DNA from: Defluviitaleaceae bacterium
GTDB taxonomy: Bacteria; Bacillota; Clostridia; Lachnospirales; UBA5962
Assembly (NCBI GenBank): GCA_009778165.1
Contig: WRKF01000182.1
Coordinates: 1 to 40,740 of the forward strand
Length of the DNA: 40,740 nt
Direction: 5' to 3'
Shown piece by piece: positions 2,858 through 21,332 of the stretch. Under the pieces are notes generated by a model. The model was not told the origin of the DNA. It made no database searches and saw nothing but the letters and a program-made list of their open reading frames with translations. How positions within the stretch are numbered: the first letter of the stretch is position 1; every line of letters starts with the position of its first letter. Position numbers and translations under genes: made by a program.

Positions 2858-3688
2858 ATGAAAGTTCTAACGATAAATGCAACACCAAAAACCGACGGTT
2901 TGTGCTATTCCTTTGTAACGGCAGCAAAGGAAGCGACGGACAAGTTGGGTATAGAAAATGAAATCTTGCGGCTATCAGATATAGGCATTGAGAAATGCGT
3001 AATGTGCGACGATGGCTGGGGTATTTGTTTTAGACATCATACGTGCAAATTTGGCGACAAGGACGGGTTTAATCCTTTGCAAGAAAAAGTTAAAGAAGCC
3101 GACGCATATATTTATATAACGCCGGTATACTGGGGCGAGGTAAGTGAAGAGCTTAAAGCATTTTTGGACAAGCTAAGGCGTTGCCAAGCCACAAAGCAAT
3201 GGAATTCAGACAAATCCGAGGTATCATTTTTAAAGGGTAAACCAAGCATTATGGTTGCATCTGCCGGTGGTGGTGGCGGTGGCATTGTTACCACATTTGC
3301 AGATATAGAACGTGCTATAACCCAAATGGGTGGCGACGAATGGCCACGCGAAACAAGCGGCATTTTTGACTATATTGCTGTAAACCGTTGGAACCAAGAA
3401 TACAAAAGAGAGGCTTTAAAATCCGCTATTGTTGAAATGGTTAAGTTTCACAAAAAACCAAAAGTTGTATCTGTAGTTGCTCAAGCAGATTATAAATTGT
3501 TGCTTACATTTGACAATGAAGAAAAGAGAATTTTTGACATGAAGCCTTATTTGGAAAAAAAGCCGTACGATGAGCTAAAAGACGTATCGAAGTTTGAAAA
3601 TGTAAAAATAACCGGTGTTCATATAGAATGGCGATCCAGGGTAGACATGCATTCAGACAAGCTGTATTCTGACAGCTTGCCGATTTAA
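2858..3688 (+). CDS. Flavodoxin-fold FMN reductase fused to DUF2442
   Basis: A 276-residue two-domain protein. Residues 1 to about 195 are an NADPH-dependent FMN reductase/flavodoxin-type fold. They begin KVLTINATPKTDG (the flavin phosphate loop) and carry the cysteine-rich segment KCVMCDDGWGIC, the PVYWGEVS segment and a Gly-rich loop at about 137-143. Iron-sulfur flavoproteins and related reductases have similar cysteine patterns, so extra cofactor binding is possible but unproven. Residues about 205-276 match the DUF2442 pattern: VVAQADYKLLLTFDNEEKRIFDMKPYL, then IEW and a terminal DKLY. DUF2442 proteins are usually free-standing and often sit near toxin-antitoxin genes, so this joining is unusual. 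The gene follows the flotillin-like gene by 27 nt with an AAAGGGG site, which suggests co-expression. The substrate is unknown. Confidence 0.75.
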   Translation: MKVLTINATPKTDGLCYSFVTAAKEATDKLGIENEILRLSDIGIEKCVMCDDGWGICFRHHTCKFGDKDGFNPLQEKVKEADAYIYITPVYWGEVSEELKAFLDKLRRCQATKQWNSDKSEVSFLKGKPSIMVASAGGGGGGIVTTFADIERAITQMGGDEWPRETSGIFDYIAVNRWNQEYKREALKSAIVEMVKFHKKPKVVSVVAQADYKLLLTFDNEEKRIFDMKPYLEKKPYDELKDVSKFENVKITGVHIEWRSRVDMHSDKLYSDSLPI

Positions 3689-18613: not shown

Positions 18614-19228
18614 ATGCTGAACATAACAGAACTAAGCAAGGCATCGCCTATAAAAACTCTTCAAGAGGGTTATATAGTAATAAAAGAAAAAGAGCGAGAG
18701 CCCTACAATATGTATGTACTGCTAAAAGGTGAGGTAGGGGTATACAAAGATCACGGCACAAAAGAAGAAATTTTGCTCGACATACTTAAACCGGGGGCTT
18801 TTTTCGGTGAAATGTCGCTGTTTTTGCACGAGGCGCGTACTGCCACAGTGATAGTGCTAAGAGAATCTCAACTGTTGGAGATAAGTCAGCAAAATGCCTA
18901 TGAAATGATAGAACAGCATCCCGTTGTTTCTTATGATCTTATAAAAGCCTTGTGTGAAAGGGTCAAAAACCTAAATGACGAGCTAAAAAGAGAAAGAGCC
19001 GACATGTACAAAGGTTTTTTGAACGAAAACGAACAAGCCCGCTATTTGCAGGAAGGCGAGGAGTGGGGTATAATAAAGGGCAGACAAGAAGGTGAACTCT
19101 TTGGCGTTATAAAGGGGAAAGTCGAATTGTTATACAGAGATTTCAGTATGCCCCCGGAACAAATAGCCAAAAGATTACTAATAACAAAAGACAGGGTCAC
19201 AAAAATAATAGATAACTTAAATTTTTGA
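18614..19228 (+). CDS. Cyclic-nucleotide-binding protein with Rpn-like tail
   Basis: A 204-residue protein. Residues about 10-125 are a cNMP-binding (Crp/Fnr N-terminal) beta-roll. The phosphate-binding cassette FGEMSLFLHEARTATV keeps the Gly-Glu and Arg positions expected for ligand binding. Instead of the usual Crp helix-turn-helix, the C-terminal part has a Gly/Glu-spaced linker (EGEEWGIIKGRQEGELFGVIKGK). It then ends in a short helical segment (LLYRDFSMPPEQIAKRLLITKDRVTKIIDNL) like the end of Rpn/PD-(D/E)XK transposase-like proteins; compare the gene at 40082. This terminal segment might be a minimal helix-turn-helix, so DNA binding is not excluded. The ATG has AAGGAG at 18601-18606. A rho-independent terminator follows. 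Confidence 0.7.
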   Translation: MLNITELSKASPIKTLQEGYIVIKEKEREPYNMYVLLKGEVGVYKDHGTKEEILLDILKPGAFFGEMSLFLHEARTATVIVLRESQLLEISQQNAYEMIEQHPVVSYDLIKALCERVKNLNDELKRERADMYKGFLNENEQARYLQEGEEWGIIKGRQEGELFGVIKGKVELLYRDFSMPPEQIAKRLLITKDRVTKIIDNLNF

Positions 19229-19323: not shown

Positions 19324-20697
19324 CTATGCGTAGTTTTTACTTGTGTTAAATATCTGATCAAATCGTGTCAACATCACAAAATTGCCTTTTATTTTTAAAC
19401 TTCCTGTCATAAACGCTTTTTGGGCACTTACCTTTCCCGTTATTACCCTAATCCAGTCGTTTTCATTGCTAATAACTGTTAATGTGGGGTTGTTTGTGTT
19501 ACCGTCATAGTAAGAGCAATCCATACCATTCACTAAAATATAGCCGTCAAAACCGCTTGCACCGCTAATATTAAGCTGTATTGAACAGTTCAAATCTCCT
19601 GCCAACTGCGGTTGGTAATGGTGTATCAGACTCGCCGTTATTTGGCGAGGGGTTTTTTGGCTTGGCATCGCTGTAGCTGTATTTTCCGTCGGTCTTGCCA
19701 TTGAGGTGGCTCGGTACTGTGTGGGTATCTCTTGCACAGGTTCGGGAGCAGCATTATATTTTTTTGAAAAAAAGCTGGTAATCTCTTGTATATCTTCGTC
19801 TTGGCGCTTGTTGAAATTGTCTATAACCGAGCTATTATAAGGGGTTGAGTTTTGTGTCATTGGGTTTGGGGGTGGGGGAACGCTATATCTTGCAACGGGG
19901 TCGGGAGCAAAAGTAGGCTGATGTTGTGGTTGAGCCAATTGGGGCCCCACAGCCCGCTGCCCTCCCATAAATGAACCTTGGTACACATTTGTGGAGGTAT
20001 GTTGGGGTTGCTGCATGGAAGCACCGGACCCGGCGGCGGCTTGTTGCGGCATTTGGTACTGTTCCTGATACTGCTCAGGGTACGAATCGGCTACATATGT
20101 TGGTGGTACATATGGTTGGGGATGCGGGGGCTGAGTCGGCAATACCATGGGATACTCTGCATGGCTGTCTTTCCCAACTTTTGGAGTATAAAACTTGCGC
20201 TTTTGGCGTACCATTCGGTAAAAATCCTCTATCTGTTTTTCTACCAATTCTTTATTGTTTTGTGTTCCGAAAAATTTCTCGTCCAAAAAAATCCGCACAC
20301 TATCGTAACCCCCAAGGCTAGTTACAGTTTTGGAAAGGCTGTTTATTGTACTCGTTTCTCCGGCAGTGCTTAGCACAATAAGCATACAGTTTTTGTGTTT
20401 TAACACGTCCGGTTCTACCTCTAAATGTTCCAAAAAAGTTTGCAACACAGAAGATACCCCACAAATTCCGGCTGTTGTGGCGATTATCAAGCCACTTGCA
20501 TTTTTTATCTCATTTATAAATTCGGCAGCAACTTGGCTTTTTATACCATCGTAATAAGGTACAGTAGTAGGCGGCCCAAGATTAAGCTCCTTTACAGGCA
20601 TACCCAATTCGGCCAATGTGTTGTTTACCAAATTAGTGATTTTCAAAAGACCTTTATCGTAATTTTTAACACTGCCAAACAAGGAAACTATTTCCAT
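19324..20697 (-). CDS. Flavodoxin-fold protein fused to SCP2-like domain
   Basis: A 457-residue three-part protein. Residues 1 to about 165 form a flavodoxin/NADPH-dependent FMN reductase-like fold (MEIVSLFGSVKNYDKG, then the GLIIATTAGICGVSSVLQTFLEHL segment). Residues about 170-365 are a Pro/Gln/Tyr-rich low-complexity linker with several PPP and QQ runs. Residues about 368-455 resemble an SCP2 (sterol carrier protein 2) domain: FDGYILVNG, LTVISNENDWIRVITGKVSAQKAFMTGSLKIKGNFVMLTRF. SCP2-like domains bind lipids or other hydrophobic ligands. The N-domain lacks the cysteine cluster of the gene at 2858, and whether it binds flavin is uncertain. The start has AGGAGGAGCC just ahead. It follows the YdcF-like gene by 8 nt. 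The combination suggests a redox or lipid-handling role, but the function is not known. Confidence 0.65.
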   Translation of the reverse strand: MEIVSLFGSVKNYDKGLLKITNLVNNTLAELGMPVKELNLGPPTTVPYYDGIKSQVAAEFINEIKNASGLIIATTAGICGVSSVLQTFLEHLEVEPDVLKHKNCMLIVLSTAGETSTINSLSKTVTSLGGYDSVRIFLDEKFFGTQNNKELVEKQIEDFYRMVRQKRKFYTPKVGKDSHAEYPMVLPTQPPHPQPYVPPTYVADSYPEQYQEQYQMPQQAAAGSGASMQQPQHTSTNVYQGSFMGGQRAVGPQLAQPQHQPTFAPDPVARYSVPPPPNPMTQNSTPYNSSVIDNFNKRQDEDIQEITSFFSKKYNAAPEPVQEIPTQYRATSMARPTENTATAMPSQKTPRQITASLIHHYQPQLAGDLNCSIQLNISGASGFDGYILVNGMDCSYYDGNTNNPTLTVISNENDWIRVITGKVSAQKAFMTGSLKIKGNFVMLTRFDQIFNTSKNYA

Positions 20698-20705
20698 GGC
20701 TCCTC

Positions 20706-21332
20706 CTAAGTGATTATATACAAAAGAAAGTTAGCTATAACAGATAGTGGTTCACGCATATATGCAAGCATCACCTCAACTCCAAAGGGGATTGGGCTAG
20801 GCGCAGGATATATGTTATCAAAATATAGCCCCCCCAATAACAAACTGCGGTACATGTGAAAGCCGTTTGTTACAACAATAATGCTTTGCATATCAAGGCT
20901 TTCGGCAATGCTGTGTACCATATTGAAATTTTGATAAGTATTGTTAGAGCTTATCTCTGTTAACACACTGGTGGGGGGGACACCCGCCTCTAAAACATGG
21001 TTAGCCATTACATAACTAACAGCTACACTGCTGTTTGGGCCAACGCCGCCGGTTAATATAATATATGGGGCATAACCCTTAGCATAAAGCTCCACCGCAG
21101 TTTTCAGGCGTGCAGTAAGCCACGGGCTGGGGTTGCCTTTGTCATCTATTGCGTGTCCCAGTACTACAATTGCATCGGCGTTTTTTGGGGCAAAATAGCT
21201 GCTGTTGCTAACGACAAACCCCAACAGCACACTCCACAAAACAAACAAACAGAGTGCAACCAACATCAGAGATATTGTTAGTTTTTTGATTTTTTTGTTG
21301 TTTTTGTAAATTTCTTTGAGTTTTTCAGTCAT
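20706..21332 (-). CDS. YdcF/SanA-like DUF218 membrane protein
   Basis: A 208-residue protein with one N-terminal membrane anchor (about residues 18-42) and a DUF218 domain. The domain shows the family segments ADAIVVLGHAIDDKGNPSPWLTARL, ILTGGVGPN, SNNTYQN and IVVTNGFHMYRS. DUF218 proteins such as YdcF and SanA are linked to envelope integrity; biochemical roles are poorly defined. No Shine-Dalgarno sequence is visible before the ATG. The best promoter (TATAAT at 21356-21351) would leave a leader of only about 12 nt, so translation may start near the 5' end. It forms a two-gene unit with the flavodoxin/SCP2 gene. Confidence 0.8.
   Translation of the reverse strand: MTEKLKEIYKNNKKIKKLTISLMLVALCLFVLWSVLLGFVVSNSSYFAPKNADAIVVLGHAIDDKGNPSPWLTARLKTAVELYAKGYAPYIILTGGVGPNSSVAVSYVMANHVLEAGVPPTSVLTEISSNNTYQNFNMVHSIAESLDMQSIIVVTNGFHMYRSLLLGGLYFDNIYPAPSPIPFGVEVMLAYMREPLSVIANFLLYIIT

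Follow-up and report, generated by a model that had tools for sequence, protein, structure and literature searches.

A flavodoxin-type domain tethered to an SCP2 domain forms a conserved protein family in one order of anaerobic bacteria

The closest described relatives of the protein considered here fall into two groups, the NADPH-dependent FMN reductases SsuE and YhdA (PF03358) and the SCP2 domains of human MFE-2, A. fulgidus AF1534 and UbiJ. Ordinary FMN_red proteins carry a first loop of the GSPRxxGNT type, and the ligands of SCP2 domains are hydrophobic tails. UbiJ, a lipid-holding accessory of the Ubi metabolon, likewise joins a bacterial SCP2 domain to a helical docking element, and its SCP2 domain has been proposed to hold polyisoprenoid tails or intermediates for an enzyme complex in the cytosol (PMC9499169). 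The C-terminal domain of alkyl sulfatases (PF14864) also has an SCP2-like fold. Both domain types are well known singly. Searches for the fusion in the literature library used found no paper that combines an FMN_red-type domain with SCP2, and the combination appears to be unstudied.

The window (the whole stretch of DNA analysed, 40,740 nucleotides) encodes on its minus strand a 457-amino acid protein (19324..20697) in which an FMN-reductase-like domain, a linker and an SCP2 domain follow one another; this architecture is confirmed by the open reading frame, Pfam matches and an AlphaFold2 model. The frame starts with ATG, and an AGGAGG-type ribosome-binding site lies immediately 5' of it, at about 20700-20707. 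The flavodoxin-like, FMN-reductase-type domain occupies residues 1-171 (20185..20697, minus strand), the low-complexity linker residues 172-349 (19651..20184, minus) and the SCP2 domain residues 350-450 (19348..19650, minus).

The N-terminal domain has the flavodoxin fold that the original prediction gave it. PF03358 is matched at residues 1-129 with 24.4 bits against a cut-off of 24, and by 54 of the 57 aligned family sequences. In the AlphaFold2 model, made from an alignment of 57 sequences, residues 1-165 (pLDDT about 95) form an alternating beta-alpha, flavodoxin-like topology. Fold comparison places this domain close to SsuE (4pty; Z 22.2, rmsd 1.9, 160 aligned), SP1951 with FMN (2oys; Z 23.4) and YhdA (Z 21), and a profile of the domain finds SsuE at E 8e-7. 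The NCBIfam SsuE match of the window protein is far below its cut-off, so the protein is not an SsuE ortholog. The domain closes with a conserved helix, EKxxEDFYRxxRQxRK, in which E157, Y160, R161 and R167 are kept.

The C-terminal part proved to be SCP2, also as predicted. PF02036 is matched at residues 368-450 (42 bits against a cut-off of 21.3) and by all 57 aligned family sequences; residues 350-450 are modelled with pLDDT 93-98, and the significant phmmer matches of the window protein among solved structures are SCP2 proteins. When modelled without the N-terminal domain, this part matches the SCP2 domains of human MFE-2, AF1534 and UbiJ in Foldseek (E 6e-8 to 5e-5). The family domain thus shares both fold and Pfam family with these proteins, but sits behind a long linker on a flavodoxin-type domain. 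UbiJ, to which the window protein is 11-13% identical in the structural match, has its SCP2 domain at the N-terminus, followed by a UbiK-binding coiled coil and with no flavodoxin-type domain, whereas the order here is flavodoxin-type domain, linker, SCP2. Weak matches to the alkyl sulfatase domain occur in 22 of 57 family members (18.2 against a cut-off of 27 in the window protein), but the family has no sulfatase domain. An SCP2 sequence does not reveal isoprenoid specificity.

The architecture is indeed unusual, as originally suggested, yet it belongs to a conserved family found across a whole order, which we take to be GTDB Lachnospirales, and is not a one-off. Scanning contigs with the single protein gave no matches; an alignment-based scan recovered the family loci. 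Homologs are present in 42 of 57 near relatives, and the family profile matches 166 of the 295 genomes of the order, where the weaker matches are partial and the genomes counted are related. In a sample of 398 genomes from the phylum, matches outside the order cover only the SCP2 part. The full domain order is found in most of 80 loci from named genomes, which include Defluviitaleaceae MAGs, Epulopiscium, Defluviitalea phaphyphila, Niameybacter massiliensis and Sporanaerobium. Retention of the fusion through a large order of anaerobes, in more than half of its sampled genomes and mostly as a single copy, is what makes it of interest.

The linker was predicted to be about 190 residues long and rich in proline and glutamine. 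The length is roughly right (178 residues, counted as 173-350), and the composition holds for the window protein (15.7% Pro, 12.9% Gln). As a family trait it does not hold, since Pro is 7.8% across 95 members; what is conserved is a single amphipathic helix. Linkers in these members have a median length of 100 residues (range 49-265), and the helix is kept throughout that range. In the window protein the linker is mostly predicted to be disordered (pLDDT 39-60), except at residues 297-314 (19756..19809, minus strand), where AlphaFold2 places the helix with pLDDT of about 85 in the full model; in the shorter construct without the N-terminal domain (pTM 0.64) it is less confident, about 62-78. 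The family motif is FxxxQExDIxEITxFFxxK. I303 is conserved in 83 of 95 members, I/L306 in 92, E305 in 68 and K313 in 58, as counted in MAFFT alignments in which the linkers vary. This pattern suggests a docking or membrane-touching helix inside the tether. Family members at two loci have very long linkers (L105:8993-10567 and L108:8992-10653), and the family profile splits each into two overlapping matches.

The family differs from SsuE and YhdA at the flavin site as well as in its fusion to a linker and SCP2. One pattern for each loop was run on the 95 family members and, as controls, on 24 canonical FMN_red proteins from genomes of this order. Of the 95 members, one has the FMN-phosphate loop ([GS][ST]x[RK]), compared with 15 of the 24 controls; this is a rough measure, because the controls are diverse and 9 of them miss the loop too. 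The isoalloxazine-loop pattern occurs in 4 of the 95 members and in 17 of the 24 controls. The sole member with the first pattern is the window protein itself, whose GSVKNYD is a partial GSxK-like loop; a GSxR-type loop is not a feature of the family. Position 14, within the FMN-phosphate loop, is acidic (Asp or Glu) in 67 of 93 members. At the columns aligned with SsuE Tyr76, Lys77 and His112, the SsuE residue is present in 3, 1 and none of the 95 members, respectively, while Glu114 is kept in 83; roles of these Tyr, Lys and His residues at the flavin and NADPH sites have been described for SsuE relatives (PMC9963409). Such replacements make ordinary FMN chemistry unlikely, and FMN or another ligand could bind in some other way. 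The redox function put forward in the original prediction is weakened by the loss of the phosphate loop and of the SsuE active-site residues. Loss of FMN itself is read from motifs, since flavodoxin folds can hold FMN through other loops.

Genes were clustered around 98 distinct family loci, with gene calls taken from mechanical open reading frames; the resulting counts are not independent because the loci are related by descent. In 36 loci the next gene upstream, in the same orientation and at a median distance of 17 bp, encodes an M1-peptidase-like protein. Adjacent, divergent murG genes are seen in 15 loci; downstream come dapF in 12, a HIT gene in 10 and wecG/tagA in 8, the last in most cases with an overlap of about 4 bp. 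In the window, the upstream neighbour is a YdcF/SanA/ElyC-type DUF218 gene (20706..21332, minus strand; PF02698, 85.5 bits), the product of which has a predicted N-terminal membrane anchor (hydrophobic peak at residue 23). Two reports on E. coli describe effects of the DUF218 proteins SanA and ElyC on peptidoglycan and lipid II metabolism (PMC13251401; PMC3879167). A conserved protein of about 230 residues with no Pfam match is encoded one or two genes upstream in 19 of the 98 loci (L139:6874-7572 and 18 others). The predicted envelope or lipid function stays plausible, given the SCP2 domain and the murG, wecG/tagA, dapF and DUF218 neighbours. An envelope-precursor setting is our best guess from the same neighbours and is held with moderate confidence only, because neighbours vary by clade (HIT, dapF, wecG, CAP, rhomboid). 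That murG is divergent, and not co-transcribed, is a point against it.

We tentatively propose, as a possible rather than a probable account, that the family protein works in the cytosol as a lipid-binding adaptor whose flavodoxin domain has been repurposed and is non-canonical, and that gene context ties it to envelope precursors. The SCP2 domain would accommodate a long hydrophobic tail of polyprenyl or acyl type. The N-terminal domain, which keeps the SsuE-type fold without the FMN-phosphate loop or reductase residues, would for that reason most likely be a docking or oligomerising module, or may bind a different ligand. The flexible linker would allow both domains to act at a distance, and the conserved helix may dock on a partner protein or on the membrane. 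Gene context suggests that the lipid most likely comes from envelope precursor metabolism at the inner membrane face. If envelope lipids are indeed handled, the family would be a lineage-specific piece of gut-bacterial cell-wall metabolism. It also offers a clear test of the reuse of a flavodoxin-type fold as a non-redox module.

The strongest competitor is an active flavoenzyme, in which the N-terminal domain would bind FMN in a non-standard manner and reduce a lipid-like molecule that SCP2 presents to it, either a quinone or another hydrophobic acceptor. The closest structures to the domain are FMN reductases, azoreductases and quinone reductases, the window protein does pass the FMN_red cut-off, and many members retain the GG of the third loop. 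Against this, the phosphate loop, the PxY loop and the SsuE Tyr/Lys/His set are almost absent, and an acid sits in the phosphate loop. We regard an active flavoenzyme as unlikely.

Another rival is a two-sided envelope module made with the M1-peptidase-like neighbour. On the outside, the exported M1-like protein would sense or bind a ligand, either from the wall or a peptide, while on the inside the fusion would act on precursors linked to lipids. The M1-like gene is present in 57 of the 295 genomes; of these, 48 also carry the family, with the genes side by side in 43, in several families of the order (odds ratio for co-occurrence 5.4, Fisher p 1.2e-6, uncorrected for phylogeny). Among 39 M1-like neighbours (L038:9896-11437 is one), 21 have a lipobox-like N-terminus. 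HExxH is kept in 14 and lost in 25, with the rest of the domain retained: in the alignment the motif is replaced, whilst QWF/QWL and the following Gly and Trp are conserved. Several of the altered proteins still match Peptidase_M1, some fall below the cut-off and one has no match at all. However, 118 genomes have the family with no M1-like protein detected, the window's own among them (no homolog was found in this 91% complete assembly), and we know of no membrane-spanning link between the two proteins. We consider a two-sided module rather improbable. Its most specific version has only a slim chance of being right: that the cytosolic pseudo-flavodoxin-SCP2 protein and an exported, often zinc-site-less M1-type protein would form a paired, non-catalytic, order-specific module coupling cell-surface events to the internal handling of lipid-linked wall precursors.

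A general housekeeping function in lipid or acyl-CoA metabolism, with no relation to the envelope and with incidental neighbours, would suit the differences in neighbours among clades, but sits poorly with an M1-like adjacency that persists across several families of the order, and we judge it a distinctly improbable alternative to the adaptor. Least credible of all, and highly improbable, is the originally predicted partnership in envelope lipid or redox work with the anchored YdcF-like protein: the two genes are arranged as in an operon in the window, 8 bp apart, overlap by 13 bp at L034 and follow the order ydcF, M1-like gene, family gene at L038 and L053, but ydcF lies beside or one gene from the family gene at only 4 of 98 loci (upstream in all four, adjacent in two and with the M1-like gene between in two), and it is the M1-like protein that recurs as a neighbour.

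A link to sporulation was considered and rejected, as Spo0A mapped over the 295 genomes gave no pattern matching that of the family gene. The taxonomic family f17, although rich in spo0A, does not figure among the listed carriers of the fusion gene, and genera such as g12 and g47 have the fusion gene without spo0A. Unlike the majority of genomes in the order, the window's genome has no Spo0A_C match in its 91% complete assembly.

Other FMN_red proteins and a further neighbour can be recorded here. The window encodes a second FMN_red-type protein (2858-3295, plus strand; 79 bits) which, unlike the fusion protein, has a PxYW isoalloxazine loop. At another locus (L125:7858-8532) the second gene upstream of the fusion gene, on its strand, encodes a canonical FMN_red protein. 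At 18614-19228 of the window, on the plus strand, lies a gene for a protein in which a cyclic-nucleotide-binding-type domain precedes a charged tail (KGRQEGELFGVIKGK...), which presumably resembles the tails of Rpn-like transposase-related proteins.
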